A stretch of 32,311 bases of DNA from positions 1 to 32,311 of the IMG/VR virus record IMGVR_UViG_3300036651_000178. One strand, written 5' to 3'. Positions 10,548-30,973 of the stretch are shown one piece after another. Position 1 is the first letter of the stretch. Each line of letters starts with the position of its first letter. Origin of the DNA: a virus. A program made the position numbers and the translations under genes. The notes under the pieces are model-generated. The model saw only the letters and a program-made list of their open reading frames with translations. It was not told the origin of the DNA and did not search any database.

Positions 10548-12092
10548 TTATGACCCAGCGGGTTTGGACGATTGGCTGATGATGCTGACCGTCTGTCCAG
10601 CCGTGACGTTGACGACCAGGCGGTTGACGACCGACATGAACTCTACGACGATGTCCACGCGGCAGATGCCCGCTTTAATGTTGGCCACAGGATTGTTCGA
10701 CAGGTTGCACGTGACGTCGTAGTCGTCAATCTTGAATGCCTTCTTCTGCGGCCCGAAGTAGGCACGGAGTGCAGCCTCAACGCCGTTACGCAACGGGTCC
10801 GGGTCACGCGTGGTCTGCAGCCGATTGACGAACTGACCGAGCGTTGGGCCCGAGAGGTCGCGCAGGATGGAGTTGAGTTTGCGCGTGTACGCAATCTCAC
10901 TCGTTGCCTGGTTAGACGAGGTGTTCTTGCCGTGACGCACACCGATAGCCTTAGCACCCGGAATCGGGTACGCAAGGAAGATGATGCCGTTGGCTTCGAG
11001 CATCGCCATGTCGCTGGCAGAGTACGGCTGCGGGTTCGCACCCATCGTGGTGTCCGTGCCCAGGATGCCGTACACCGGGTTATTGCCCGGGGATTGCTCT
11101 GGGTCAACCGACAGCGCCACACCCGCGATAACGCCCGTAGTTGGGAGCGTCACGTTGGTGTTGAGGTACGTGTCGAGGTACGTCACCGTGCCGAGGCAGA
11201 GAATCAGGTCAGGGTCCGAGACACCCGCCGTGTTCTTAGCTGCAACCGCTGCAGTAGGCGTCATGGCGCCCATGCCGGCGTACGCAGCCGCCGATTCACT
11301 CTTGGCGAACGCCAGAAGCGTGGACCAAGCCGTGGAATCCGTGCTACCCGCAAGCATAACGCCGTCGATGCCAGTGCCGCGAAGGGCATACATGCCTGTG
11401 CGCGCACCTGCACCGCCATCCGTGCCGAGCAGTTTGGCCGTGTTGAGAGTGGCCACGCCGTCCAGACCGCCCGTCAGTACGATGGTTTCACCCGTCGCTG
11501 GAGGGAGGACCGTGCTAGGCGTGCCCGGGAGTGCTAGCTTGACGAGTTGCGACGCAGCGTTGACTGCGTTCATGATGTTCGTCCAAACCGTGGCACCCGC
11601 GTTGCCGTCAATGCGGTCGAAAACTTCCGTCACCGAACCGAGGGTGACGAGCACCTTCCAGGTGAGGTTTCCGGTAACGCTGTTGCTGCCGGGCAAGAGG
11701 GACAGTTGAATCTTGTCGCCGTAGCTGCCCGTGTAGAAGGCCGTCGCCAACAGGCCCGGGGCTGGAGTGCCCGTTGAGTCGCTGAGCGTGCCCGTTGCGG
11801 CTGCATCCGTGCCGTCCGTATCACGGACTGCCGTCACGCCACCCTGGGGCTGCTGCGCGAGGAAAAGCGAACCTACCTGAACGATGTCGTGGCCCGAATT
11901 AATCGGAGGACCCCACGTGGTCAGAAGGTCTTGGGGCGTGTTCTTGGTGACCGGCACACCGACCGGACCCCACGACGCACCACCTGACAGGCCCAGGTTC
12001 ATTAGGTCCTGTGCATTCGTAAGGATAGGCTGGGGCGGGTTTACTCCAAGGTAAACGTCGTCAACCCCGGTGCCGTTCGACAGTAACGCCAT
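10548..12092 (-). CDS. Tail sheath protein
   Basis: 514-residue contractile sheath subunit that drives the tube through the host envelope. Sheath landmarks can be read: an N-terminal segment GVPVTKNTPQDLLTTWGPP, a central variable domain with GETIVLTGGLDGVATLNTAK, and the conserved C-terminal core with NGIIFLAYPIPGAKAIGVRH, LNSILRDLSGPTLGQFVNRL and a final strand VVEFMSVVNRLVVNVTAGQ. Length is within the usual 480-660 range. AAGGAG lies about 12 bases before the ATG. The tube gene follows after 16 bases, so the two are co-transcribed. This gene defines the phage as a myovirus. Confidence 0.95.
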   Translation of the reverse strand: MALLSNGTGVDDVYLGVNPPQPILTNAQDLMNLGLSGGASWGPVGVPVTKNTPQDLLTTWGPPINSGHDIVQVGSLFLAQQPQGGVTAVRDTDGTDAAATGTLSDSTGTPAPGLLATAFYTGSYGDKIQLSLLPGSNSVTGNLTWKVLVTLGSVTEVFDRIDGNAGATVWTNIMNAVNAASQLVKLALPGTPSTVLPPATGETIVLTGGLDGVATLNTAKLLGTDGGAGARTGMYALRGTGIDGVMLAGSTDSTAWSTLLAFAKSESAAAYAGMGAMTPTAAVAAKNTAGVSDPDLILCLGTVTYLDTYLNTNVTLPTTGVIAGVALSVDPEQSPGNNPVYGILGTDTTMGANPQPYSASDMAMLEANGIIFLAYPIPGAKAIGVRHGKNTSSNQATSEIAYTRKLNSILRDLSGPTLGQFVNRLQTTRDPDPLRNGVEAALRAYFGPQKKAFKIDDYDVTCNLSNNPVANIKAGICRVDIVVEFMSVVNRLVVNVTAGQTVSIISQSSKPAGS

Positions 12093-12338: not shown

Positions 12339-12976
12339 TAGTTACCGCCTTTGTTTACTAGGAGTAGGCCCAGAGGCTGGCTGTCGAGTGCAGCGTAGAG
12401 GTCAACCTCAGACACCGTGTAGGCGGCTGTGGCGTCACCTTGCGGCACTTGCGTGACCGTGAAATCAGCCATATAGCTCATCTGGGCAATGTAAATGGAA
12501 TCTGTTTGCTCGTCGTCAAACTCCAGGATGTTTGAGAACGTGACGGCCGTAACCGTCGTGTCTGTCTCCGTCTGCCTGAAGAAGTCCGTCAGCCCTGCAC
12601 GGATACGGTCTTGAATGGCGCGACGGGTCGCACGGTCGTAGGACCACGCCTCAACGATGACTTGCTTCTTGGACCGCCCCACTTCGTAGACTGCCTGGTT
12701 AGTCTGTCCTACGACCGGGATGCTGTCGTAGTTGTCGATGAAAGGCACCAGCTGCTCCACCTTGCCGGAGTAGACTGCAACCTGCGCCATGTGGTTCTCC
12801 AGCCGTTCCGTCACCTTGACCTGAATCGGGTGGCCGGGGGTCACGAGGGTAGCGGGAATCTGGCCAGCCGTCGTGGTGAGGTTGACGTAGTTTGGTGGTA
12901 TGCTAGGCTGGAACGGTGCGAGGACGTTTGCGACCGTTGCTGCTAGGTTGTCGAGGACATCATCAATGAACGCCAT
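12338..12976 (-). CDS. Putative tail terminator / tail completion protein
   Basis: 212-residue protein just upstream of the sheath cluster, where contractile phages keep the protein that caps the tail tube at the head end. After an N-terminal helix (MAFIDDVLDNLAATVANVL) it reads as an alpha-beta protein: a strand HPIQVKVTERLENHMAQVAVY, then VIVEAWSYDRATRRAIQDRI and IYIAQMSYMADFTVTQVPQG, consistent with the tail-terminator fold. I took ATG 12976, which has GCAGG upstream, rather than the longer TTG start at 13000, which lies inside the preceding gene and lacks a ribosome site. It overlaps the receiver gene by 14 bases. Role is inferred from order and fold-like pattern. Confidence 0.6.
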   Translation of the reverse strand: MAFIDDVLDNLAATVANVLAPFQPSIPPNYVNLTTTAGQIPATLVTPGHPIQVKVTERLENHMAQVAVYSGKVEQLVPFIDNYDSIPVVGQTNQAVYEVGRSKKQVIVEAWSYDRATRRAIQDRIRAGLTDFFRQTETDTTVTAVTFSNILEFDDEQTDSIYIAQMSYMADFTVTQVPQGDATAAYTVSEVDLYAALDSQPLGLLLVNKGGN

Positions 12977-13307
12977 GAGCACCTGCCAATGCCATCTCAA
13001 CGAGCATCTTGGTGAGCGGTTTGATAGCGTGCGGACGGTCCTTCAGTGCAGCCTGCTGGCCCATCGAGGTCGTCAACACGACGTAGGTATTTAGGCCCGC
13101 AGCCTTAACGGCATCTGCAACCTCACCGCCCGTCATGTTCGGCATGATATAGTCGAGCATGGCCACATCCGGTTTGTGCTCCTGGATAGCCTTCCACGCT
13201 GCACTGCCATCGTTGCACTCAGCCACGACTTCGTAGCCCAACTTCAACATGATGCGTTTGCACACATCCAGCATCAGCGGGCTGTCGTCAGCGATAACTG
13301 CCTTCAT
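12963..13307 (-). CDS. Stand-alone CheY-like response regulator receiver protein
   Basis: 114-residue single-domain receiver. All residues needed for phosphotransfer can be seen: the acidic pair D7-D8 (MKAVIADDSP), phosphoacceptor D52 in DVAMLDYIMPNMTGGE, the switch position T80 in VVLTTSMGQQ, and K96 followed by Pro in HAIKPL. The SMGQQ phrase is close to that of chemotaxis CheY proteins. There is no output domain, so it must act by binding a partner or as a phosphate sink. I chose ATG 13307, with a purine-rich GGAAGAAGAG just upstream; the longer frame to 13367 lies in the neighbour. It overlaps the upstream gene by 20 bases and the downstream tail gene by 14, so it is a fixed member of the late operon. 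Receiver family is secure, target unknown. Confidence 0.9.
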   Translation of the reverse strand: MKAVIADDSPLMLDVCKRIMLKLGYEVVAECNDGSAAWKAIQEHKPDVAMLDYIMPNMTGGEVADAVKAAGLNTYVVLTTSMGQQAALKDRPHAIKPLTKMLVEMALAGAHGVH

Positions 13308-13545
13308 ACTCTTCTTCCAACTCCTCCATAAGAGTGATGTACTTCTGTTCGATGTCTCTGCACTCACTCTCCAGCATAGACCAGATGCGTGTCGAAGTCC
13401 AGTAGGGGAGGAACCCCAGCGAACCCGCAGACGTCAGACGTTTGGAGCAACGGGCCTCAGCCTCAATTATCTCCCGTGACTGCGCCTCTTGGAGCGCCAC
13501 CGCCTTGGCGATGAACTCCTGTTCCTTAGATGAATACGCTTTCAC
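13288..13545 (-). CDS. Helical protein of unknown function, upstream partner of the receiver gene
   Basis: 85-residue charged helical protein that I do not recognise. Two predicted helices are visible: residues 1-35 (KEQEFIAKAVALQEAQSREI) and about 50-83, ending in a strongly acidic MEELEEEYEGS tail that could form a coiled coil. A short aromatic loop, GFLPYWTSTRIW, joins them. The likely start is GTG at 13545 with AGG about 7 bases before it; it overlaps the end of the upstream connector gene by 20 bases. It also overlaps the receiver start by 20 bases, which hints at joint expression and perhaps interaction. The longer frame to 13596 is Arg-rich and looks like shadow sequence. Confidence 0.6.
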   Translation of the reverse strand: MKAYSSKEQEFIAKAVALQEAQSREIIEAEARCSKRLTSAGSLGFLPYWTSTRIWSMLESECRDIEQKYITLMEELEEEYEGSYR

Positions 13546-15721: not shown

Positions 15722-17131
15722 TTATCGCGCCGAGGCGACTTGGAGAGCAACTGCACGCTTGTAACGTGCCGCGCTGGCCGAAGGAACCACGATGTTGTTG
15801 ATAGTCGCATCCGTAGGACACGCGTACCCGCCGATGTAGTACCAGCCCATGCTCAGGATTTGGCCTGCGCGGTCGAGCGGCATACGGTTGACGAACACGA
15901 TGTCGTCCACGATGTCGAACTTCTGGATACCCATGTCCGGCATCGAGCGGATGGCTTCAGCCGTACCCGCGAACGGGGACTGCTGCACGTACTTCTCGCC
16001 CGTGATGATTGCATGGCGAACCGTCAGCTGTTTGCCGGCGTGGTTCGTGATGCTGAACGACGGGCTGTTGGTGGTCGGTACGAACGTCACACCGAAGTTG
16101 CGGTTGATGCGCGCCCCCTTGAACTCGGCAGAATCAACCGTGCCTTGCGACATGATTTGGTACTGCGGGTCCGTGAAGAACTGAGCGTCAACAATCGGGT
16201 CGATGTAGCACGGATAGGTGCCATCGGCCAGAGGCGACTTCACGCCGTTCGCACGCAGCTCAGACACCGCGTTGATGACGAGTTGGGCACCGATGGTGTC
16301 CGTCGCATCAAGCGCCAGTGCGCTGGCTTTGCCGTTCGGACGATAGACCTTCGCACCGTCGAACGCCGTGATGACGTCGCCAACTGCAAGGGTTTCGTTC
16401 GCAGCGAACGTGACCGTGCCGCTGACGCCGAGGCTGCCCATGCTGGAGGTGCTAGGCGTATCCGGGGTCCATCCGACGATGGTGGCCGCCGAAGTGCTGC
16501 CGTCCGCAGCCTTGATGATGGTGACGTTGAGCGGGTTCGATGGGCTCACCGCCTGCGGCGCACCCGTTGGGAACGTGTTGCCGTTGATGGTGATGGTAGC
16601 GAACGCCGTGTTCAGACCGAGGACGTTGTCCACATGCGCCGTGGTCTGGGCCGTGGTGGCCGCCGTGGCGAAGCTGGAGCCAGCGAGGTACGCCTGGAAC
16701 GCCGTCTGCATGACGCGAAGGTCAAGCGACAGTGCCGCGTTCTCACCGATGTTGTCCACGTTCTGCTTGAACAGGTCCGCAATGACTTCCTTCTCTTGAA
16801 CGAGGTTCAGGTCAAGGAAGTAAGGCGACATGCCGATGCCGACCGACCACTGTTCGAACGGATAGGTGGGGTTACCCGCACCGACACCGCCGATGCCCGT
16901 CACGCCGTTGTCGAGGCCCGTGTTGGCCGAAGGCGCCAGGTCAGAGAGAACAGGGCTGATGCGGCCCGCACGCGAATACGTGATGCTTTCGCCCGAGCGA
17001 ACCGGGACCGGGAGGCGGAACGCCGTCTTGCGGTAGGCGTTCTTCGCGCCCAACTGCATCTCATAACGACGAGCCAGCATGTTCTGCTGGAAAATGCCTT
17101 GGAGCGCGGTTGGAAAGTTTTCAAATGCCAT
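15722..17131 (-). CDS. Major capsid protein
   Basis: 469-residue shell protein. It lies after scaffold and prohead protease genes and before a terminator, has a strong ribosome site (AAGGAG) and starts MAFENFPTALQGIFQQNMLA. HK97-fold features can be read: an N-terminal arm, a long helix VIADLFKQNVDNIGENAALS, and a C-terminal part with AEAIRSMPDMGIQKFDIVDD. Between residues about 165 and 270 there is a Thr-, Ser- and Gly-rich beta insertion (TFPTGAPQAVSPSNPLNVTI and on) that probably projects from the capsomer as a decoration domain. No other gene in the window fits the role. Confidence 0.9.
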   Translation of the reverse strand: MAFENFPTALQGIFQQNMLARRYEMQLGAKNAYRKTAFRLPVPVRSGESITYSRAGRISPVLSDLAPSANTGLDNGVTGIGGVGAGNPTYPFEQWSVGIGMSPYFLDLNLVQEKEVIADLFKQNVDNIGENAALSLDLRVMQTAFQAYLAGSSFATAATTAQTTAHVDNVLGLNTAFATITINGNTFPTGAPQAVSPSNPLNVTIIKAADGSTSAATIVGWTPDTPSTSSMGSLGVSGTVTFAANETLAVGDVITAFDGAKVYRPNGKASALALDATDTIGAQLVINAVSELRANGVKSPLADGTYPCYIDPIVDAQFFTDPQYQIMSQGTVDSAEFKGARINRNFGVTFVPTTNSPSFSITNHAGKQLTVRHAIITGEKYVQQSPFAGTAEAIRSMPDMGIQKFDIVDDIVFVNRMPLDRAGQILSMGWYYIGGYACPTDATINNIVVPSASAARYKRAVALQVASAR

Positions 17132-17316: not shown

Positions 17317-18015
17317 TTAACTGTAGGGACTTTTGACGACCTCATCCACCAGGTTCTCATCAAACGCTTCCTGGGCCGTAAGGTACACCTCACGCCGTTT
17401 GTAGCGGTCTGCCCAGTACTCAGCAGGCTTGCCGGTACGCTCTGCATAGATGTTGTTGATGACGGCCATCATCTTGTCGCCACCCTCCATGTAATCCTTG
17501 AACTCCCGGTACTTGCCGTAAAACTCGTCACGGTACTCATGAATCATGAATATGGCTGTGGAGTCAATGAGGCGACGGGTTGCAGCCTGGGTGATGATGG
17601 TTCCCATGCTTGACGCCTCACCCATGATGTGGACGTTGACTGGCCGACCTTCGCGCTGAATCTTGTTCATGATACCCATGACGCCGAGGCCTGAGGATAG
17701 GCTGCCCCCGGGTGACGTCAGGAACATCGTGATGGGATGGCCCTTCTTCAGGGTTAGGTGCGCGCTCAGCAACTCGTGCTGCATCTCAGTGCAGCTGTTC
17801 TCCTCAACCTCACCGTGGAAGAACAGAAACCCCTCTTGGTGCGCCAGGTTCTCTTCAAAAGCACCGTCTGGGATAGCCTTCTCCATGATGGTCCACACTA
17901 TCTCATCGATAAGCGTGCCCACGTTCTTGAGGCGACGAGGCCGCAGGTGCTCCGTCACTGCGACCCGTATCTTGTAGTCTAGGGCTTCGTGGGTGAGTTT
18001 GCCTGTATCAGACAC
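17317..18015 (-). CDS. ClpP-like prohead protease
   Basis: 232-residue S14-type serine protease, expected to cleave scaffold and capsid protein in the prohead. The ClpP pattern is clear: an oxyanion-type turn in TSPGGSLSSGLGVM, the nucleophile S136 in IMGEASSMGTI and the catalytic H159 in FMIHEYRDEF. The N-terminal 60 residues are an added helical region not found in bacterial ClpP. The start is GTG at 18015, with GGAG 8 bases upstream, overlapping the end of the exonuclease gene by 8 bases. Its place just before the capsid gene supports a maturation role rather than housekeeping proteolysis. Confidence 0.88.
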   Translation of the reverse strand: MSDTGKLTHEALDYKIRVAVTEHLRPRRLKNVGTLIDEIVWTIMEKAIPDGAFEENLAHQEGFLFFHGEVEENSCTEMQHELLSAHLTLKKGHPITMFLTSPGGSLSSGLGVMGIMNKIQREGRPVNVHIMGEASSMGTIITQAATRRLIDSTAIFMIHEYRDEFYGKYREFKDYMEGGDKMMAVINNIYAERTGKPAEYWADRYKRREVYLTAQEAFDENLVDEVVKSPYS

Positions 18016-18649
18016 TCAACATTCTCCGCAATTTAAGGGGTGTTAGGGTGGGGACGTTTAGATGCCAGGGGAGCAGTTTCCGGTAGACTTTCTCAAGCAG
18101 GACAACGTCCTGGGCGTTGTACTTCCGCATGAGGGACCACGCAGCAGGGTCGCCTGAGATACACTTGCTCCACAACTCCCATCCCGTATGCTGCACCTTG
18201 GAGCCAAGGCCCAGGAATTTGGCGATGTAGCTGAGTTTGTTCGAGTTGAACTTGAAGTGTCTGCGAGCAATCTTGAGCGTGTCGATGGTTCGGAAAGGCG
18301 ACGTTGGGCCGAAGCCATGAGCGATGAATCGCGCATGAGCCTTGCGTATATCGTGACGGTCACCATTGTGCGCGATGATGACGTCAGCTTCGTCAAAGAC
18401 CTTCCACAACTCCCAAGCCAATGCCCGGTCGTTCATTTTGTCTTTGGCGTAGCCCTTGAAGTCTGGGAGGGCGTAGGTGTGAACCTTTGATTCACCCTCC
18501 CAGCGCACGGAGAAGCTGAGCAGCTGCCATTCCGTGTTAACGTCAATGACGTTCTGCTCGTAATAGTCCCAAACCCACGCTAGGTTCGGGGCGTTCTCAA
18601 TGTCGAGGAACGCTATGCGGAGGTTATGCTTTTGACCAGGCGTCTTCAA
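18008..18649 (-). CDS. DEDDy-type 3'-5' exonuclease
   Basis: 213-residue RNase H-fold nuclease. The exonuclease motifs are readable: Exo I with D16 and E18 (IAFLDIENAPN), Exo II with HNGDRHDIRKAHARF around D100, and Exo III with YNAQDVVLLE, where Y177 and D181 put it in the DEDDy class of polymerase-type proofreading domains. No polymerase domain is attached. The most likely start is TTG at 18649, which lies inside the scaffold gene's end (26-base overlap); the longer frame upstream is basic low-complexity shadow of scaffold. Its substrate is unknown. Lying between scaffold and protease, it may act on DNA during packaging or head maturation, which is inference. Confidence 0.75.
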   Translation of the reverse strand: MKTPGQKHNLRIAFLDIENAPNLAWVWDYYEQNVIDVNTEWQLLSFSVRWEGESKVHTYALPDFKGYAKDKMNDRALAWELWKVFDEADVIIAHNGDRHDIRKAHARFIAHGFGPTSPFRTIDTLKIARRHFKFNSNKLSYIAKFLGLGSKVQHTGWELWSKCISGDPAAWSLMRKYNAQDVVLLEKVYRKLLPWHLNVPTLTPLKLRRMLSV

Positions 18650-19280
18650 ACGCTTCGTCTGTGACCGTCTTGTCCGAGAAGTCGGTGGGCTTGCCTTGTG
18701 CGCGGTTGTTCGTGCCCGGGGTGATTTTTGCGCCTTCGGTCTTGCCACCTTTATCTCCCTTGTCGCCCTCGTTGGCGCTGGTGTCGGCTGCAGTCTTGAA
18801 TTTGTGCGGTTTTGCAGCCTTGAATGCGTCAATAGCGGCTTTGGCGCCGATGACTTCACCGTCGTCATCAACCGTGACGTCTTTCACGTCAAGCAGCTTG
18901 ATGTCATCGATGTCGAGGATACCCGCTTCACGGGCCAGCGACCGGAGTTCAGCGCGGATGAGGCGCTGGTTAGTGTTGGCCGTAGCGTCCGCCAGCTTCT
19001 TCTCAGCTTCCTTCGCACGCTTCTCGGCCAGTTCAGCGACCTTTTTCTGGTCGTCTTTGGCTTTGGCCTCGTCAGCTTCGCGCTGGGCGGCTGCGTCCTC
19101 TAGCGCCTTGGCGCGGTCCTTTGCAGCCTTGGCTTCGTTGCGGAGGCGCTCAACGTACTCCCGGCTGAACTTCTCGTCATCCGGTTTGTTCTTGTTTGCG
19201 GCCTCAGCTGCTGCTGCATCCGCTGCGGCTTTGTCGGCAGACGCTTTGGCGTCAGCTGCTGCTTGCTCTTCAGGGGTCAT
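18624..19280 (-). CDS. Head scaffolding protein
   Basis: 218-residue highly charged helical protein located between the portal and the protease, the normal place for a scaffold. Residues 1-110 are Ala-, Lys- and Glu-rich coiled coil (EQAAADAKASADKAAADAAA and on, then EKRAKEAEKKLADA). A small ordered part follows (NQRLIRAELRSLAREAGILD, VDDDGEVIGAKAAIDAFKAA), then a Gly- and Lys-rich linker and a C-terminal helix that should bind the capsid protein. This is the gp20/phi29-like scaffold layout. The stop is TAA; its last 26 bases overlap the start of the exonuclease gene in another frame. Confidence 0.85.
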   Translation of the reverse strand: MTPEEQAAADAKASADKAAADAAAAEAANKNKPDDEKFSREYVERLRNEAKAAKDRAKALEDAAAQREADEAKAKDDQKKVAELAEKRAKEAEKKLADATANTNQRLIRAELRSLAREAGILDIDDIKLLDVKDVTVDDDGEVIGAKAAIDAFKAAKPHKFKTAADTSANEGDKGDKGGKTEGAKITPGTNNRAQGKPTDFSDKTVTDEAFEDAWSKA

Positions 19281-21045: not shown

Positions 21046-22509
21046 CTACTCCAATGAACGCCTGAACTCAACGGGCTGACGCTTGGACAAGGTGCGCTCC
21101 ACCCAAATCAAATAACCCAATGCGTCAGACAAGTGGGTCATCTTATCATCTTCTTTGTCGATGTCGTTCGTGCCTTCTTTCCATCGCACTGCTTCCAGGT
21201 CCGTTACCAAATACGGTGCCTGTTTAGCGTCGATGAAGAGGCCCTTGCCGTCCTTCGTGAAAATCTGCGCCTTGACTTCGTTCACGCGGTCCATGACCGA
21301 TGGGTTCTGGGTCTGGACGCGAAACTCTACCCGGATGCCTTCACGCTGCAACGCCTGGACGATGATAGCCCAGTTGGAGCGTGCAGCGGAGGTTGACGAC
21401 ATAGACTGCGAACGAGCGCCACCGGAGGCGTCACCATAGAGGATGACTCCTGTGCGCTTGGCGAGTGCGCCAAACTCCTTGATGAATGCGTCCGCAACGT
21501 CAGGAGCACCTGCGTTTGCTAGGCGAAACTCCTTCAGGATATAGAGAAGTGCGTGCTGGTAGTCCGGGGCCAGCAGCGTAGTTGAATCTTGCAGGTGGTG
21601 GACTTTCGACATGCCCGGCAGCTGTTGAAGATGCGGGGCGTAGTTGGCCCCCGCCTTCACGATGCGCTGCTGTTGATGCATCTGGCCCACGACCGAACAC
21701 ATCAGACCTACGTTGAAGTCCAACGACCATAGCAACGGTTTGTTGGGGTCGATGGCTAACGGCGGCAGAGGTGCAGGAGGCTCAACGCAACAGATGTTTC
21801 GGCTGAAACCCTTATACACGGTTCCGACCGTCGTGCTTCCCCAGTTACCGTCGATGAGATAGGGCCACAAGTCGGGGGACATCGAACGCTCCTGGCGGTC
21901 GATGTAGTTTTCCAGCTCAGGCATGAGGTAGTTTTCACGCAGGGACACGTTCCAGCACTTGCAATAACCGCGCTCCACGATGAGTTCATAAAGCCACGAC
22001 CCAATGGCGGAGGGGTTCGTGGTGATGCGGAGTTGCGGCTTCATCCCATACTTGGCGTACTGTTTCCCGTTCGGGCTGTAACGCAGACGAGGCGCTAGAT
22101 AGCGCGTGAAAGCAATGTCTGCGCTAGGTCCCCAGTCTGCAATTTCATCGCACCAGATGGTATCAGCTTCAAGTGCGCGGAAGCCTAGGTAGTTTTGCGC
22201 GGACAGAATCTTGATGCGGCAGCCGTTGGATAGCGTAATTTCACCAGTGGATTGGTTATAGGAATATTCCACATTCCTTTGGTCTAAGACACCTTTGAGG
22301 GTAGCGATTGGACCCCGCTTTGCCTGAGGTAGGTCCTTAGCCGCAATACAGTGGGTTCCCTCCGGGTACATGAGACAACGGTCTGCGAACCAGTTGGCTG
22401 CAATGAACGACTTGCCGCATGCGAAACCGCCGACAACGCAAGCAATGTCGTCATCGCACTCCAGAAACTCATACTGCCAGGGTAGGATTTCAGTGTCTAG
22501 GACTGCCAT
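21046..22509 (-). CDS. Terminase large subunit
   Basis: 487-residue packaging motor with ATPase and nuclease domains. The ATPase shows a Walker A motif GGFACGKS at residues 27-34 and a Walker B with catalytic acids DTIWCDEIAD at about 116-125. The C-terminal RNase H-like nuclease has its metal-binding acids in LLWSLDFNVG (D264), LYGDASGGA (D360) and THLSDALGYL (D461). All expected residues are present, so the enzyme should be active. It starts at ATG 22509, 3 bases after the small subunit gene, and is followed by the portal gene. It is the best marker gene in the window for placing the phage in a tree. Confidence 0.95.
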   Translation of the reverse strand: MAVLDTEILPWQYEFLECDDDIACVVGGFACGKSFIAANWFADRCLMYPEGTHCIAAKDLPQAKRGPIATLKGVLDQRNVEYSYNQSTGEITLSNGCRIKILSAQNYLGFRALEADTIWCDEIADWGPSADIAFTRYLAPRLRYSPNGKQYAKYGMKPQLRITTNPSAIGSWLYELIVERGYCKCWNVSLRENYLMPELENYIDRQERSMSPDLWPYLIDGNWGSTTVGTVYKGFSRNICCVEPPAPLPPLAIDPNKPLLWSLDFNVGLMCSVVGQMHQQQRIVKAGANYAPHLQQLPGMSKVHHLQDSTTLLAPDYQHALLYILKEFRLANAGAPDVADAFIKEFGALAKRTGVILYGDASGGARSQSMSSTSAARSNWAIIVQALQREGIRVEFRVQTQNPSVMDRVNEVKAQIFTKDGKGLFIDAKQAPYLVTDLEAVRWKEGTNDIDKEDDKMTHLSDALGYLIWVERTLSKRQPVEFRRSLE

Positions 22510-22512
22510 GGG

Positions 22513-22986
22513 TTAGCCGAGGGCCTGCTTTACCGCCCTCTCACGACGTACAATATACCTTATGCCCACTTCTTCGCCTGCATCGGGCTGGGCCGATGGC
22601 GCGGTGGACTTGATGCCGTGAACCTTGCGTGCGATATCAATGGCGATATCTTGCATCTCAGCGACCATCTTGAGCGTCTCAACACGGTCCTTGATTTCAG
22701 CGCGTTCGCCCCTGGACAGGGTCTTGTCTTCCAGCTGTACGACCATTTCATCAATCATAAGCTGAAGTTTGCGCGCCTTCTCACTGTGCTGTGCCAGCAC
22801 GTCATTAGCGTCTACTGTCTTCTTGCGCGCTAAAAACTGTTGACGCTGGGAGGCCCAATCGTCTTTCGTGCAGTGCGCTTGTAGAACAAAAATGGCGGCG
22901 TCCAACGAGACAGCAATGTCGGGGATTGCCCGCCCTTGCTCTACGTATAGACGCCGCGCCAGTTCTACCTTATCGTCCGAGGCCAT
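22513..22986 (-). CDS. Putative terminase small subunit
   Basis: 157-residue protein directly before the large terminase gene. Small subunits recognise the packaging site on DNA. The N-terminal 60 residues read as a helix-turn-helix: VELARRLYVEQGRAIPDIAV, then SLDAAIFVLQAHCTKDDWAS. The middle (residues 70-130) is a long coiled coil (LMIDEMVVQLEDKTLSRGER and on), which fits the oligomerisation domain of the family. The C-terminus is basic. Size, domain order and position agree with TerS, although such proteins are poorly conserved. Confidence 0.75.
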   Translation of the reverse strand: MASDDKVELARRLYVEQGRAIPDIAVSLDAAIFVLQAHCTKDDWASQRQQFLARKKTVDANDVLAQHSEKARKLQLMIDEMVVQLEDKTLSRGERAEIKDRVETLKMVAEMQDIAIDIARKVHGIKSTAPSAQPDAGEEVGIRYIVRRERAVKQALG

Positions 22987-23015: not shown

Positions 23016-23606
23016 TTAGCCTCTTTCTAAGGTCTCAACCAACAGCCTACTAGCCTCACCGAAGGTGCAATCCAGCACTCTGTAGCCGCCGTCCAGGTAG
23101 CGTTCCCGGCAACGCCGCAGCATCTGCACCTTCTTGTCGAACAAGTCCTCTTTGAAGGGGCCGCGCACGACCTTCGATGACTTGCGACGTTCAGCTATGT
23201 TGGCGAAGGACTGCTCACGTGAGGTGGAGAGGAAGGCGAACACCATGTTCTCTTTGCCGACATAGTCGGCCATGTCTGCCCAGCGCTGGAACGTGATGGA
23301 GGCTAGGATGCCCTCGAACAACACGTGGTAGCCGGCATCGTGATACCGCTGAACCCGTTGAGTGATGTAGTCCTGCGTCTTGACTGCATCGCAACCGCCT
23401 GTGGGACGGTCGTAGGTGCCCACGATGTAGATAGGCTTGCCTTGCGCGGTTGCAGCGCACTCAATGCCGATGACCTCTTTGGGGCCAGTCGCCATGATGG
23501 GGTCGCCCGTCGTTAGACGACGCAGCTCACCGCCGAAGTGGCTCATCACACCACGGATTGCAGTTGACTTGCCGGAACCGTGGTTGCCTCTAACCTGTAT
23601 AATCAT
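23016..23606 (-). CDS. P-loop kinase, resembles 5-hydroxymethyluracil DNA kinase
   Basis: 196-residue P-loop kinase. Walker A is GNHGSGKS at residues 7-14. The segment IVGTYDRPTGGCDAVKTQDY at about 61-80 and HVLFEGILAS at 94-103 match, as I recall it, the pattern of the phage 5-hmU DNA kinase family, which phosphorylates hydroxymethyluracil already in DNA as the first step towards hypermodified thymine. The start is ATG 23606 with GGAG 6 bases upstream; a TTG one codon earlier is less likely. It overlaps the upstream gene by 17 bases. That partner also looks like a thymine-modification protein, which supports the reading. A general nucleotide kinase remains possible. Confidence 0.65.
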   Translation of the reverse strand: MIIQVRGNHGSGKSTAIRGVMSHFGGELRRLTTGDPIMATGPKEVIGIECAATAQGKPIYIVGTYDRPTGGCDAVKTQDYITQRVQRYHDAGYHVLFEGILASITFQRWADMADYVGKENMVFAFLSTSREQSFANIAERRKSSKVVRGPFKEDLFDKKVQMLRRCRERYLDGGYRVLDCTFGEASRLLVETLERG

Positions 23607-24438
23607 CAAACTCTCCTGCTTTGAACATTGCGCGGGCTATTCTGGAATCCCGTCCGTGGTTACGGAGGTCGTGGAACGCTTCCACCTTGTCGTCGCCTAC
23701 CTTGTACGTGCCGCGTGCCCACTTTTTGTAGCGGCAGAACAATGTCTCTATTTCCTGCATCTCAAGGTTGCGACCGTACACCTTGACGTGCTTTAGCTCC
23801 TCCAGGAGCCGTCGCGTTGTTGCTAGGATATCTTCGCCGGGTAGTGCGAGAATCCTGGCTCCAGCCTGCGGTGACTCGTAGAGTTCAATTTCAGTTGTGG
23901 GTATGAATGCGAGGTTCAGATGCTCCAGACCGTTCTGGGCCATATCGTAGATTAGGAACCGGATGTAGGGGCCCATCATCTTTACGTCCTGCACGGTCGA
24001 ACAGAACGAGTCCCAGTCACCGCCCGCAAACCAACTCCTGAGCCCTTTCCCGGGTGATTCTGGATGCTTCTCCCGGTGGTCCAGGATTGCGAGGCGACCC
24101 TTATCGCCACGGAAGTGACGCCGTTCAAACGCTCTATGGAAGGCGGGGTACTCGGCAAGCACTGCGTCGTACTGCTGCGACGGTGGGAGTGACGCTATGT
24201 AGGCTGCAACCCCCGCCGACATGAACCAGGAGTACACGGCCAAGAATGACTCACGCTCCTCCGGGGTGATGTCTGCGTCGCGCATCAGCTTGATGACATA
24301 ATCGTGGTCACTCGCCGGGAACATTGTCTCTGCGAGTTCACGAGCGGATTGTTGGTGGTCGTAGATTATCGGTGCGCTCTTGCGGGCCTTTGCGACTGGC
24401 GGGAGGGCACCCATAGGGAGGGGGAGGGCTAGGGCCAA
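23590..24438 (-). CDS. Putative thymine hypermodification protein (aGPT-pyrophosphorylase / amino acid:DNA transferase-like)
   Basis: 282-residue mainly helical protein. The region VKMMGPYIRFLIYDMAQNGL (residues 152-171) and the C-terminal segment QEIETLFCRYKKWARGTYKV (228-247) resemble conserved parts of the alpha-glutamyl/putrescinyl thymine pyrophosphorylase group, which replaces the pyrophosphate on modified thymine with an amine or amino acid. This is recalled pattern similarity, not a search result. The start is TTG at 24438, immediately after the TAG of the helicase gene. The kinase gene overlaps its end by 17 bases, and that pairing is the main support. Residues 60-120 have no motif I can name. 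Confidence 0.5.
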   Translation of the reverse strand: MALALPLPMGALPPVAKARKSAPIIYDHQQSARELAETMFPASDHDYVIKLMRDADITPEERESFLAVYSWFMSAGVAAYIASLPPSQQYDAVLAEYPAFHRAFERRHFRGDKGRLAILDHREKHPESPGKGLRSWFAGGDWDSFCSTVQDVKMMGPYIRFLIYDMAQNGLEHLNLAFIPTTEIELYESPQAGARILALPGEDILATTRRLLEELKHVKVYGRNLEMQEIETLFCRYKKWARGTYKVGDDKVEAFHDLRNHGRDSRIARAMFKAGEFDDYTG

Positions 24439-25902
24439 CTATTTCTCACTTTCCACGAAGTAGAGTTCAGACTTGGGGCGGGTGAGGGCCACGTACTTGA
24501 GGTTCATTTCCTGCTGAAACTCCCAATCGCGCTGGCCCTTCCACGTGAGCGGCAGCTTCTCCGGCACGATGATGAACACGCGATTCTCTTCCAGACCTTT
24601 GGCGCGGTGGATGGTGGAGAGCATCACGCTGGCGCGGCCATCCGAGAACAGCCCTTCAATCTCTTCGCAGAGGTCGTTGACCGAGAGGCAGCCGAAGGTC
24701 TCATAGCAGACCTGGATACCCTGGATGCGGTCGTTGTGGGCTTCCAGTGCAGCCTCGTGGTGCTTGGCGCGCTGAATCTTCTCTTGCTCTTTACCGCTCC
24801 ACACCGTGAGGAGGTCCAGGTTGAATTCGCCACGGTTGGCCTTGGCCACCTTGCGGATGATGCTCGTGAGGCTCTTGGCGATGTCGCGGCCACGCACGCG
24901 GGCAGGCTTGCGGTGGCGAATCATCTTGATGCACTCTTTGATGAGCGGTGCAGTCAGGCGGCAGAGAACCAGGTCACCCTCGTTGGCCTTCTCCGCCAGG
25001 TCCTCAGACTTGATGTACTCCACGACACCTTCCGGTGCGTCCGGTCGTGCTTCGATGTGGGGGACGATTTGGCGGGCCAGGTCCAGGGCCTTGGTGTGGC
25101 AACGGTAGTTGATGCTGAGCGGTAGTTCCAGGGCGTTGAGGCGTTCTTTGATGTTGTAGAACGAGTTGCAGTCAGCGCCTGCGAACCCGTAGATGCTCTG
25201 GAACGGGTCGCCTACGAACAGCATACGTCCACCCTTGGAGCGTGCCTTGAGGACCAGTTCCAGCTGAGCCGGGGAGAGGTCCTGCGCCTCGTCCACGAGC
25301 ACGAAGTCAAACTTGCGCGGCTGCAGACCCATCGAAGTGGGGAGCCAAATCATGTCGGTGAAGTCGATGACGCCTACGCGGCCCATCGCCACGCCCGTCG
25401 CCAGCGCCTGCGGGAGGGCTGCTACCATTTCAGCGGTGATGTCTTCGATGTTGTGGTGAGCGATGAGGTCCCACACTGCTTCGTTGTCGGTGGGGCTGGT
25501 AAGGCTCACGCGCACTTTGTCGAGGAGGTCAGCGAAACGGTTAGCCTCATTGCGGTCCTGGAACATCGTCTGCGCGATGTCCTTGTATTTGTACTCCTGC
25601 ACGTTCACACGCTTGCCCTTCGGCAGGCTGAACGCAATCGCACCGTAGCCGAGGCTGTGGATGGTCTTGACTTCCACGTGCGTAAGGCCCATCGCCGCAA
25701 TCTTGCCTTGAATCTCTTTGGCGATGTGGGCGTTGAAGGCCAGGAGAATCACTTGACCGTGAATGTAGCGGAGTGATTCGAGCAGGGTGGTGGTTTTGCC
25801 GCTACCCGCGACAGCGTTGATGACCGCGTCACCCGAGCCAGTGCGGACCCAGTTGAACACGCCTTCTTGATACACCGAGGGTTTGAACGTCGTCGTAGCC
25901 AT
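24439..25902 (-). CDS. UvrD-like SF1 DNA helicase
   Basis: 487-residue superfamily 1 helicase with all core motifs: Walker A AVAGSGKTTT (30-39), Walker B VDEAQD (203-208), motif III GDPFQSIYGFAGA (231-243), motif IV with SINYRCHT, motif V STIHRAKGLE (429-438) and motif VI YVALTRPK (470-477). It should unwind DNA 3' to 5' in replication or recombination. It is smaller than bacterial UvrD and lacks large 1B/2B insertions. I chose ATG 25902; a TTG at 25914 sits right on the AAAGG ribosome site. A sigma70-like promoter ends about 35 bases upstream, so this gene likely heads an operon with the modification genes. Confidence 0.92.
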   Translation of the reverse strand: MATTTFKPSVYQEGVFNWVRTGSGDAVINAVAGSGKTTTLLESLRYIHGQVILLAFNAHIAKEIQGKIAAMGLTHVEVKTIHSLGYGAIAFSLPKGKRVNVQEYKYKDIAQTMFQDRNEANRFADLLDKVRVSLTSPTDNEAVWDLIAHHNIEDITAEMVAALPQALATGVAMGRVGVIDFTDMIWLPTSMGLQPRKFDFVLVDEAQDLSPAQLELVLKARSKGGRMLFVGDPFQSIYGFAGADCNSFYNIKERLNALELPLSINYRCHTKALDLARQIVPHIEARPDAPEGVVEYIKSEDLAEKANEGDLVLCRLTAPLIKECIKMIRHRKPARVRGRDIAKSLTSIIRKVAKANRGEFNLDLLTVWSGKEQEKIQRAKHHEAALEAHNDRIQGIQVCYETFGCLSVNDLCEEIEGLFSDGRASVMLSTIHRAKGLEENRVFIIVPEKLPLTWKGQRDWEFQQEMNLKYVALTRPKSELYFVESEK

Positions 25903-25942
25903 TTCTGATTTCAACCTTTCACTGAGTAGCGATTACACCCTA

Positions 25943-27107: not shown

Positions 27108-27599
27108 TTATTTCGCACCTCCAAATATCTGATTGTACATTTGAATCCAGTTGGTTGAGATGCCCTTCTGGGCGTCTTGCAGCGTGATTTGCCCGGCGCA
27201 GACCATCTTGTGGAGGCGGTTCTCCAGCTTGTCCTTGATATGCGCATTGTAGGGCGTGGACACGTAGGACTGGGGCCAAAGGTTCTTGATGTCGTTTGTC
27301 CCACCCAGCTCAAGGCTGATGAGGTGGTCCACTTCGTACTTGCTCGTGTTGCGACCGTTCACCACGACCGTTTGCGGCGTGAGGCCGTACTCCTTGTACA
27401 CGGCCCGCTTCTCTGACTCCGGCACGTTACGAACCGTGGTCGTATGGAAGTGAGGGTCGCACAGCTGCGCGCTGGTGCGGTCGCTGACTGCACCGGGGGT
27501 GAGCGTAGCATTTGGAATCTGTGGGTCTGTGGGCCCCGCGAGGGCCGCTGTCGCGGAAAGGAGGAAACACGACAGCAGCCCTATGATGACGTTGCGCAT
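27108..27599 (-). CDS. Secreted HNH-family endonuclease
   Basis: 163-residue nuclease with an N-terminal signal peptide (MRNVIIGLLSCFLLSATAAL, cleavage likely after Ala-21), so it should be exported to the periplasm. The HNH-like core is YEVDHLISLELGGTNDIKNL (residues 88-107), followed by NLWP and the helix HIKDKLENRLHKMVC (120-134). H92 and N102 are likely active-site residues. The start overlaps the stop of the RNA ligase gene as TAATG. Such proteins occur in proteobacteria and some phages. Possible roles are destroying DNA of competing phages at injection or scavenging nucleotides; both are inference. Confidence 0.75.
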   Translation of the reverse strand: MRNVIIGLLSCFLLSATAALAGPTDPQIPNATLTPGAVSDRTSAQLCDPHFHTTTVRNVPESEKRAVYKEYGLTPQTVVVNGRNTSKYEVDHLISLELGGTNDIKNLWPQSYVSTPYNAHIKDKLENRLHKMVCAGQITLQDAQKGISTNWIQMYNQIFGGAK

Positions 27600-28726
27600 T
27601 AGTGAAACTCCGTCTGGTCTTTGAGCAGATACTCGTCGCTGATGAGTTTGAGGACCTTGCGACCGAGCATCGGGTGAGTTGTTTCTTTGACAGGTTTGAC
27701 GACCACGCCCTCACGCACCTTCGTGCTGGGGTCTAGGTTTGACGGCCCTGTCGCCATCGACTTCACGTAGGAGGTGTCGTACACACCCGCGTGCAGGATG
27801 GGGACTGCCGGCAGGCCCATGATGTCGCAGCGGTCAAATAACGCATCCGGGTCCTCGTAGCGCCCGTCAATCATGATGTCGAACAGCGCCAGTTTGTGCT
27901 CGCCTTCGGCGCATCCGTAGGCGTAGTTCTTCTGAATCTTGTCGCCGTAGATTTCACCGTAGACGACAAGTGACTTCAGACCAAACCGTTCCATGTGCTC
28001 TTTGAGCTTGTCTTTGAGGCTGTACTTGCGTACAATCTCAGCGTAGACGTTGGAATCATAGAACGTCTTGGGGTTGATGCGGTCCTGCAACTGCACCTGG
28101 CTGCTGCCGTACACAAACTCCACGGCTGGAAGCAACCGGAGGAGCCGTTTGATGCGCTTCCACAGCGTGTTGCAGTTGGTCGGCACGAAGCCTGCGCGGA
28201 AGTTGGTGCCGTGAATCTTCTCGGTGACGAAGACAGGCTCACCATCCACGAACACGCCGGGATAGTTCTTGGCGTTCTCCAGGTCCGTGTACTTGAAGAA
28301 GTGCGGGTTGGTCTCCTTCACCGTCGCCTTGCGACCGTTGAGCGCAGACGGCACATGGGCCGCAGGCGGTTCGTACTTCTTGACGCCTAAACGCTCAGTC
28401 AGGTCGTAACCCTCAAAGAGGTCAAACCCGAACCCGAGGGTGCGAGGCTCCACCACGAGGCCCTGACTGATGGCGCCGCGCAGTTTGATAGTCTTGATGC
28501 GGTGATTCGTCAGCTTGACCTTCGCATCAGGCCCAAAGATGAGGTCCTCCACGCTCTGCGGAAGGATGCTGTCGATGGGGAAGTAGACGCATAGGTCACC
28601 TTCCTTGAATGCGCCCTTCTGGGCGACGCACCGCCAGTCTAAAACTTGAACGAGGTCCAGGCGGTCTGCGTTGGGATGCGGCTCAACAGAGCGAATGCGC
28701 TCCACTTTGACGGCTAATGTACTCAG
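27599..28726 (-). CDS. RNA ligase (Rnl5 / DraRnl-like)
   Basis: 375-residue ATP-dependent RNA ligase with an N-terminal OB-type domain (residues 1-115, VKVERIRSVEPHPNADRLDL) and a nucleotidyltransferase domain. Motif I is TEKIHGTN with the AMP-accepting K170; motif III is VVYGEIYGD (255-262); motif IIIa is ALFDIMIDG; motif IV is REGVVVKP (338-345); motif V is KVLKLIS (357-363). All needed residues are present. The best start is CTG at 28726, 5 bases after AAAGGAG; earlier codons fall in the tRNA-Trp gene. Standing next to tRNA genes, it may mend tRNAs cut by host anticodon nucleases, which is inference. Confidence 0.85.
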   Translation of the reverse strand: MSTLAVKVERIRSVEPHPNADRLDLVQVLDWRCVAQKGAFKEGDLCVYFPIDSILPQSVEDLIFGPDAKVKLTNHRIKTIKLRGAISQGLVVEPRTLGFGFDLFEGYDLTERLGVKKYEPPAAHVPSALNGRKATVKETNPHFFKYTDLENAKNYPGVFVDGEPVFVTEKIHGTNFRAGFVPTNCNTLWKRIKRLLRLLPAVEFVYGSSQVQLQDRINPKTFYDSNVYAEIVRKYSLKDKLKEHMERFGLKSLVVYGEIYGDKIQKNYAYGCAEGEHKLALFDIMIDGRYEDPDALFDRCDIMGLPAVPILHAGVYDTSYVKSMATGPSNLDPSTKVREGVVVKPVKETTHPMLGRKVLKLISDEYLLKDQTEFH

Positions 28727-28743
28727 ATTTGCTCCTTTGAATT

Positions 28744-28815
28744 TGGCAAGGGAGGTGGGGATTGAACCCACCAAGTCCGGTTTTGGAGACCAGACCGCGC
28801 ACCAGCGCCTCCGAT
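28744..28815 (-). tRNA. tRNA-Trp (CCA), irregular structure
   Basis: Minus-strand cloverleaf. The T arm GTGGG-TTCAATC-CCCAC and the anticodon arm CTGGT-CTCCAAA-ACCGG are excellent; the anticodon is CCA, read as Trp, with T33 in place. The discriminator is G and CCA is encoded. The 5' half is odd: acceptor ATCGGAG against CTCCCTT has mismatches at 2:71 and 3:70, and the D arm is only GCGC-TGGT-GCGC with no linker at 8-9. Total length is 72 instead of about 76. It could be functional but reduced, or decaying. Confidence 0.75.
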
Positions 28816-29302: not shown

Positions 29303-29380
29303 TGGTCTGAGCTGCTGGATTTGAACCAGCGACCTCATGTTTCCAAAACACGCGGGGACTCCAGACTCCCCCAAGCCCAG
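29303..29380 (-). tRNA. tRNA-Pro (TGG)
   Basis: Complete minus-strand cloverleaf of 78 bases including encoded CCA. Acceptor CTGGGCT pairs with AGCTCAG (one G-U pair); D stem GGGG/CCCC with a 10-base loop containing GG; anticodon arm CGTGT-TTTGGAA-ACATG with anticodon TGG; T arm GCTGG-TTCAAAT-CCAGC; discriminator A. The C1-G72 first pair and A73 are typical of bacterial proline tRNA. It likely helps translation of CCA/CCG-type proline codons in phage messages. Confidence 0.92.
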
Positions 29381-29432: not shown

Positions 29433-30089
29433 TTAGATGAGCGCGGAGGTCAGGAACGGCAGGCGGGAACGATAGACGCTCAGCGGCTGCATCTCAAGGC
29501 GGATGCGTTTGCTGAGGCGGTGAAATATCTTGCTCGCCGTCATGGCGTCCGCAAGAGCGTCATGGGCATCGTTGTTCTTGATGCCAAGTCTGCTCGCCAA
29601 CTTCGCCTGACCGAGGCATTCACCGTAGACTGCGTAACCGAGCGTGACGTTGTCGATGACGCGACGGAACACGCTGGGTTCGTAGCCGAACCGTCTGAAC
29701 TCCTTGATGAGCCAGGCCACATCAAACGGGGTGTTCTGGCCGACGATGATGACTTCACCCTCGTTCTGCGTGTACTTCTGGAGGAAGGCATTGAAGTCGC
29801 GCAACGTGTCGCTGAAGATTTCAGCCTTGTCGATGCGCGCCGGGGTGAACCCGTTGCACTCAAACGCCTTGCTGTCGTACTGCACCTGGTGGACGCCTTT
29901 GGTGCTGAAGTTGGGGTCCGTGTCTCGCACGAAGTAACCCTTGAAGTGGTCCTCCGTGTCGCCCGTGGCGAAGGCGCCAATCTGGACAATGCCGTGTTTC
30001 GTGCTGTCCAGGCCCGTGGTTTCGAGGTCCAGGGCGATGAAAGTCTTAGCTCCCAATTCGTTCTCCATTTCTATGGTAGGTGAGTTCAT
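29433..30089 (-). CDS. DnaQ-like DEDDh 3'-5' exonuclease
   Basis: Exonuclease of the DnaQ / RNase T type. Exo I is TFIALDLETTGLD (D and E of the DEDD set), Exo II is IIVGQNTPFDVAWLIKEFRR, and Exo III is NNDAHDALADA with the His and Asp of the DEDDh class. No polymerase is attached. 218 residues are counted from ATG 30089; a second in-frame ATG at 30068 is equally possible, as neither has a strong ribosome site. It overlaps the upstream HD gene by 44 bases. A role in DNA or RNA trimming is expected; whether it proofreads for a phage polymerase elsewhere is unknown. Confidence 0.88.
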   Translation of the reverse strand: MNSPTIEMENELGAKTFIALDLETTGLDSTKHGIVQIGAFATGDTEDHFKGYFVRDTDPNFSTKGVHQVQYDSKAFECNGFTPARIDKAEIFSDTLRDFNAFLQKYTQNEGEVIIVGQNTPFDVAWLIKEFRRFGYEPSVFRRVIDNVTLGYAVYGECLGQAKLASRLGIKNNDAHDALADAMTASKIFHRLSKRIRLEMQPLSVYRSRLPFLTSALI

Positions 30090-30816
30090 TGAACCGTTTG
30101 ATGTACTCGTACTTCGCCACAGAGGGCGGCATGGCAATCAACTGCAAGTCACGACGGGGAATGTCGTGCGTCCAGTTATCCACGATGACCGGCAGGAAGT
30201 TATCAGCCTCAATGGCCAACGCCTCCGCATCTGCACGACGAACGCTGGACGGCATAACCGTTTCCAGGCCTGCCCAGGCGGCAATGACTCCCTGCAACTT
30301 GTCTTCAGCCGTACGGTAGAAGCTGAAGCGCGGGTCCTTCTTGATGGGGCTGGGGATGTCCACCAGATACGCCTCAGACGCATCGTGAAGCAGACCCGCC
30401 AGCGCGTCCTCCGGGTCGCAGATGCGGCTCACAAGGAGGCAGTGCTGGGCGACGGAGTAGAACTGGCTGATGTGACCCGCATAACGACACTGCATCGACA
30501 GCGAGTGCGCTATGGCCTCCAGCGTGAGGTCCTCTTTGCGCGGGTCCAGGGCCTCAAACTTCTGGCCGGGGTAAACCTGAATCCAGGTTGCATCGTACTT
30601 CGCTTTATCTACAGTCGCCGCATCTTTCGGCTGTTCCGTCGCCAGCGCGTCTGCTCGAACGCAAACCGTTTTCCCGGCTACGATAAGCATGACGCCCGCA
30701 ACGTAGCCGGGTCCGTCGTCGTTTGCGTAGTCAATCTCTTTGACGTACTCCGCTTCGATAAGGACTTTCTGCCCCTCGCGGAATGGCAATGAGGTCGCGT
30801 TAGATTCCTTTGTCAT
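30046..30816 (-). CDS. HD-domain phosphohydrolase (YfbR-like nucleotidase)
   Basis: 256-residue protein with two parts. Residues 10-65 are a small beta domain of unknown role (REGQKVLIEAEYVKEIDYAN). From about 95 on is an HD domain: RYAGHISQFYSVAQHCLLVS with H125, LLHDASEAYLVDIPSPIK with H144-D145, and a downstream Asp in VRRADAEALAIEAD. This pattern is common in phage HD hydrolases related to 5'-deoxynucleotidases, which act on nucleotide pools. I chose ATG 30816 with GGAG 6 bases upstream. The start lies inside the end of the preceding gene. Substrate is inferred, not shown. Confidence 0.8.
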   Translation of the reverse strand: MTKESNATSLPFREGQKVLIEAEYVKEIDYANDDGPGYVAGVMLIVAGKTVCVRADALATEQPKDAATVDKAKYDATWIQVYPGQKFEALDPRKEDLTLEAIAHSLSMQCRYAGHISQFYSVAQHCLLVSRICDPEDALAGLLHDASEAYLVDIPSPIKKDPRFSFYRTAEDKLQGVIAAWAGLETVMPSSVRRADAEALAIEADNFLPVIVDNWTHDIPRRDLQLIAMPPSVAKYEYIKRFNELTYHRNGERIGS

Positions 30817-30973
30817 GCAATTCTCCAATCTTACACTCCACGACGTAGGTTCCACTGGAAGCGAACCACTGTCCGTGCGCTGCTGCTTTGGCCGCTTCTT
30901 CGGTTGCGAATACGCCGAAACACATTTTCCCGTCGTAGCCCCAATCGGCCATGAGAACGAACACGGATTTCAT
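30800..30973 (-). CDS. Small protein, unknown function
   Basis: 57-residue protein starting MKSVFVLMADWGYDGKMCFG, with helix FATEEAAKAAAHGQWFASSG and a final strand TYVVECKIGELHDKG. The beta-alpha-beta order and aromatic residues resemble short phage proteins of the type found near nucleotide-metabolism genes, but I cannot name the family. ATG 30973 overlaps the TGA of the 22-residue frame as ATGA; a GTG eight codons earlier is an alternative start. It overlaps the HD gene by 17 bases. Confidence 0.6.
   Translation of the reverse strand: MKSVFVLMADWGYDGKMCFGVFATEEAAKAAAHGQWFASSGTYVVECKIGELHDKGI

Follow-up and report, generated by a model that had tools for sequence, protein, structure and literature searches.

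The window, that is, the whole stretch of DNA analyzed here, is a linear fragment of 32,311 bases from an uncultured tailed phage (IMG/VR virus record IMGVR_UViG_3300036651_000178), and nearly all of its genes lie on the minus strand. Its left part holds the genes for tail and baseplate, and the structural genes include a contractile sheath (10548-12092), the capsid (15722-17131), a portal gene listed between the capsid and the large terminase, the large terminase itself (TerL, 21046-22509) and a candidate small terminase (TerS, 22513-22986) directly before the TerL gene. The two genes under study are a P-loop homologue of the 5-hydroxymethyl-dU DNA kinases (23016-23606, minus strand) and an all-helical, 282-residue homologue of the amino acid:DNA transferases (ADDT, aGPT-Pplase2 clade; 23590-24438, minus strand). 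A UvrD-family helicase (24439-25914, minus strand; Pfam UvrD-helicase, E = 2.6e-24) lies directly upstream of the transferase, and beyond it we found HNH, RNA ligase, DnaQ-like exonuclease and HD phosphatase genes. The order of transcription is helicase, transferase, kinase, small terminase and large terminase.

An earlier, sequence-only reading of this DNA had proposed an overlapping gene pair at 23016-24438, and the observation is real: two minus-strand open reading frames occupy these positions and overlap. When taken from its first start codon (TTG at 23609), the kinase covers 23016-23609 and 197 amino acids; the ATG at 23606, with AGGAG shortly before it, is a better start and gives 196 amino acids. 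With the latter, the end of the transferase gene and the start of the kinase gene share 17 bases (23590-23606, minus strand), and the AGGAG, similar to a ribosome-binding sequence, falls within the transferase gene. Together, the overlap and the AGGAG suggest that translation of the two genes is coupled. The transferase frame opens with a TTG directly past the helicase stop codon and contains an ATG at 24414. As two other lineages carry both frames unbroken and in the same order, the pair is not a product of chance.

Several other features of the window were recorded. A stand-alone response-regulator receiver domain (12963-13367, minus strand; PF00072, E = 5e-16) lies among the head-tail genes, an odd location for a signalling domain, and is also present in the sister contig L139 (12855-13238; PF00072, 7.5e-11; 42% identity). 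Two DnaQ/RNase H-fold exonuclease-like proteins are encoded (18008-18871 and 29433-30137, minus strand), one of them within the head gene cluster and adjoining a Clp-type protease (17317-18015). A single tRNA-Pro with anticodon TGG (29303-29380, minus strand) is located between the DnaQ-like exonuclease and small open reading frames, and the RNA ligase (27599-28774, minus strand) has a PHA02142-type OB-fold domain and is kept in both sister lineages (70% and 55% identity).

Identity of the kinase and the transferase

The sequence-only reading had named the first protein a 5-hmU DNA kinase, and a profile search supports that identity. The profile was built from the kinases of Pam3, RHph_TM26, YuA and PaMx11, all from TS-bearing modification clusters, with the window excluded, and it matched the window kinase with E = 2.2e-23. 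The Pfam family for 5-hmdU DNA kinases (PF18748) matched with E = 0.0012 and 18.9 bits, under its curated 27-bit cut-off, and tblastn retrieved 50 phage records at 22-33% identity, the majority of them Yuavirus/M6-like or PaMx11-like. All 11 family invariants, defined from 57 diverse members, are kept (G8, G11, G13, K14, G64, Y66, G72, D74, E99, G100 and R141), and the protein shows the Walker A motif GxxGSGK (P-loop G8, G11, G13 and K14), GGxD, EG and a late Arg. The GGCD and FEG segments singled out earlier are conserved family motifs, with G72 and D74 invariant in the former and E99 and G100 in the latter. The AlphaFold model (pLDDT 93) has a nucleotide-kinase fold, and Foldseek listed adenylate, thymidylate and deoxynucleoside kinases among its matches. 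As a sequence search with PaMx11 gp49 found no solved structure of a 5-hmdU DNA kinase, a fold search cannot name this family; the predicted fold fits a DNA kinase and an ordinary nucleotide kinase alike and is uninformative on the substrate.

For the helical protein, the earlier wording of "aGPT-pyrophosphorylase-like or transferase" holds in its second part: the protein belongs with the amino acid:DNA transferases (Pfam ADDT, clade aGPT-Pplase2) and not with aGPT-Pplase1. A profile of four aGPT-Pplase2 proteins, again with the window excluded, matched it with E = 7.8e-22, and an aGPT-Pplase1 profile gave no match to it; similarly, BLASTP linked it to PaMx11 gp46 and Pam3_47, both aGPT-Pplase2, and not to aGPT-Pplase1 proteins. 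Pfam PF18724 (ADDT) matched with E = 1.1e-4 and 22.4 bits, under the curated cut-off of 26.2 bits, and phmmer found the PDB entry 8z2m, "Glycinyltransferase" (E = 3e-7), which corresponds to PaMx11 gp46 over its full length. With both Pfam scores below their cut-offs, routine annotation would miss both enzymes. A tblastn search of 50,697 phage records at E 1e-5 gave no match to the transferase, but this reflects a limit of sensitivity, as BLASTP against chosen proteins does find relatives.

The AlphaFold model of the transferase (pLDDT 90) matched solely 8z2n/8z2m in the PDB (PaMx11 gp46/PUGT, a 5-PmdU glycinyltransferase; TM 0.78, E = 4e-11), the next unrelated fold having E = 0.42; the alignment that went into the model consisted of 64 family members, so this match and the sequence evidence are not independent. 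The 11 invariants defined from 64 relatives are all present (D44, D46, R102, E105, R106, R107, G156, D165, E231, C235 and Y245), as are H108, R110, E229, T232 and K238, giving the family pattern DxD, RxxERRHxR, G, D, ExETxxCxxK and Y. The MGPYIRF and ETLFCRYKKW segments, pointed out before any search was made, are likewise conserved motifs, with the family forms G-P-W-I-x-F-K and E-T-x-L-C-K-W-K.

Sister lineages and known systems

IMG/VR scans with TerL and the kinase recovered just two sister lineages, L066/L067 and L139-L141, whose TerL proteins are 83% and 64% identical to that of the window and whose contigs are, like the window, incomplete fragments. Identity within each of the two sets is >99.7%; a further contig, L002, shares 4,937 bases with the window at 100% identity and thus says nothing on selection. 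All sister contigs (L066, L067, L139, L140 and L141) have the order transferase, kinase, TerS and TerL, and share the RNA ligase and the HD phosphatase with the window; the UvrD-family helicase is kept in L067 and missing at that place in L139-L141. Scans of IMG/VR with TerL, the kinase and the SNF2-helicase returned no complete genome, only the same three fragment lineages and distant phages, and GTDB genome scans gave no relative and identified no prophage or host. Komagataeibacter phage phiKX1 matched the sheath at 29.6% and has no annotated modification genes among the genes listed.

The transferase of the window is 39% identical to that of L067 and 30% to that of the L139 lineage, and the kinase 45% and 44%, respectively. 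Against L067, these are the least conserved among the main neighbors compared: identity is 55% for TerS, 58% for HNH, 59% for DnaQ, 61% for the helicase, 68% for HD, 70% for the RNA ligase, 79% for the portal and 83% for TerL. The transferases of the three lineages form a supported (96%), long-branched clade, and it is possible that the fast divergence reflects pressure from the host to change the chemistry. At the residue level, K162, found in 79 of 80 relatives, is Leu in the window, Gln in L067 and Lys in L139, and the near-invariant W158 is Tyr in both the window and L067. The near-invariant W158 and K162, against which the glycine-specific 5-PmdU glycinyltransferase function of PaMx11 gp46 was assessed, are thus Y158 and L162 in the window transferase. 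In addition, K236 is Arg in all three lineages, and the window shows P47 to Tyr and Y49 to Ile. With the near-invariant lysine replaced, the substrate may be other than glycine.

Both families are found together in characterized phages. In the Pseudomonas phage PaMx11, gp46 (PUGT; PDB 8z2m/8z2n) shares clade and fold (TM 0.78) with the window transferase, and gp49, in the same cluster, belongs to the family of the window kinase; identities to the window proteins are about 20-26%, and gp46 differs from the window transferase in having the near-invariant lysine. The PaMx11 cluster includes a FAD enzyme (gp47) and an acetyltransferase (gp48); it also has aGPT-Pplase1, TS, HD, dCMP deaminase and DNA polymerase, of which the window has only the HD protein. 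The Pseudanabaena phage Pam3, a myovirus and so contractile-tailed like the window phage, encodes Pam3_47 (aGPT-Pplase2) and Pam3_49 (kinase), each 27% identical to its window counterpart. Genes similar to Pam3 gp33 and gp34 are present in a sister of the window, whereas the structural genes and gene order of Pam3 differ from those of the window, and its cluster holds aGPT-Pplase1, Nmad5, TS, radical SAM and PLP genes that the window lacks. The Yuavirus/M6-like Pseudomonas phages (YuA gp10 and gp13) have the same kinase and aGPT-Pplase2 families, the kinase being 29% identical, but there PLP and radical SAM genes separate the transferase from the kinase, whereas the two adjoin and overlap in the window.

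A probable thymidine hypermodification pathway

In M6, ViI and PaMx11, 5-hmdU enters the DNA through the nucleotide pool and is phosphorylated in DNA by the kinase, with a reported preference for TG/TC; the phosphate is then replaced by an amino acid, sometimes with later tailoring, and M6 DNA contains 5-NedU. The modified thymidines of M6, ViI and phi W-14 and their restriction resistance have been published (PMC6449724). We consider it highly probable that the window pair performs two central steps of such thymidine hypermodification, and the proposal of a thymine hypermodification pair made in the sequence-only reading is supported. From the homology, the transferase fold, the conserved positions, the conserved pairing and the gene order, we infer both activities. 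The kinase would use ATP to convert 5-hydroxymethyl-dU in phage DNA to 5-phosphomethyl-dU, and the helical transferase would then swap the phosphate for an amino acid or a similar amine, giving a modified product that would shield the DNA from host nucleases. Glycine, the amino acid added by PaMx11 gp46, is the default guess for the added group, but the altered near-invariant residues make another nucleophile possible. The pair is most likely a divergent member of the known system in a fast-changing, previously unseen lineage, and an uncultured lineage of phages with contractile tails would thereby join those known to protect their DNA by this chemistry.

The other components expected of such a pathway were compared with related loci. 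IMG/VR scans covered 59 transferase loci and the best 80 of 139 kinase stretches. A kinase is present in 87 of 90 IMG/VR transferase loci outside this lineage; these loci usually also hold aGPT-Pplase1, a TS-family protein, HD and DNA polymerase A, and further either a FAD enzyme or radical SAM and PLP enzymes. In the window and the sister contigs, all of them fragments, nothing matched the profiles for PF00303/TS, PF12851 (TET/JBP oxygenase), aGPT-Pplase1, Nmad5, FAD (lyase), radical SAM or PLP. The window does encode a homologue of HD-domain deoxyribonucleoside 5'-monophosphate phosphatases (30046-30855, minus strand; phrog_318, E = 2.9e-60), which has a weak match to YuA gp18 and matches an HD profile of hypermodification loci with E = 0.004. 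The HD family is widespread, and the protein may have an accessory role in removing dTMP.

The sequence-only reading had placed a dUMP hydroxymethylase outside the window; the window indeed has no TS gene, but a TET/JBP-type oxygenase is an alternative source of the hydroxymethyl group. Such an enzyme would act on thymine in the DNA and supply the same gene pair, a route described for Rhodococcus phage Tonitrus (PMC11955845). PF12851 occurs in two records that bear the kinase or the transferase but lack TS (L136, in G018, 42 kb; L012, in G020, 15 kb), and these likely reach hydroxymethyluracil by this different route. For the window we consider it unlikely: PF12851 is absent here and in the sisters, and TS-family (PF00303) proteins are encoded by 44/44 of the searched virus records that bear the kinase and are at least 45 kb long, a count that is descriptive and not an independent test, as the TS of many records was already known from the fetched flanks. 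The end of a 35-kb sister contig, with a dCMP deaminase, an SNF2-type helicase and Pam3 gp33- and gp34-like genes, also fits the TS route better. In Pam3, gp33 and gp34 are followed, further on, by the TS-containing modification cluster, and this gene order suggests that the missing hydroxymethyl-source gene plausibly lies just beyond the contig ends.

Other readings of the kinase itself are far less probable. The PHROG that it matches best, phrog_800 (E = 1.3e-17), carries the name "terminase small subunit", and a single gene stands between the kinase gene and the large terminase; the same label, however, is attached to RefSeq YuA gp13 and PaMx11 gp49, which are P-loop kinases within thymidine modification clusters, and TerL is directly preceded by another gene, at 22513-22986. 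We thus rejected the small terminase assignment, which has next to no chance of being correct; the name looks like an annotation error, and a misleading one, as phrog_800 contains 5-hmdU DNA kinase homologues. That the gene encodes an ordinary nucleotide kinase, beside a helical protein unrelated to DNA modification, could be argued from the Foldseek matches to adenylate, thymidylate and deoxynucleoside kinases and from the weak Pfam match to the 5-hmdU kinase family. Those fold matches come from a search in which a 5-hmdU DNA kinase could not appear, none being found among solved structures, whereas the family profile, the GGxD and EG motifs, the constant pairing with the transferase and the fold of the latter all point to DNA modification, and we regard this reading as very improbable.

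More weight goes to the reading that the transferase has changed its substrate or lost its activity, so that it attaches something different from glycine, or that the pair is drifting. The changes K162L, W158Y, K236R, P47Y and Y49I are consistent with this, as is the identity to L067 of only 39% for the transferase and 45% for the kinase against 55-83% for their neighbors. On the other hand, every family invariant and the fold are kept, neither frame is broken in any of the three lineages, and the third of them, L139, retains K162; the intact frames and kept invariants argue against decay, and we judge this reading unlikely. In a fairly unlikely variant, the pair would be a two-gene module detached from its usual cluster, attaching an amine other than glycine with no later tailoring enzymes and producing a thymine modification without precedent; the basis for this is a transferase in which the near-invariant Lys and Trp have been replaced and whose divergence outpaces that of its neighbors. 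With altered residues in an otherwise intact protein, this transferase is well suited for testing what determines which amino acid is added.
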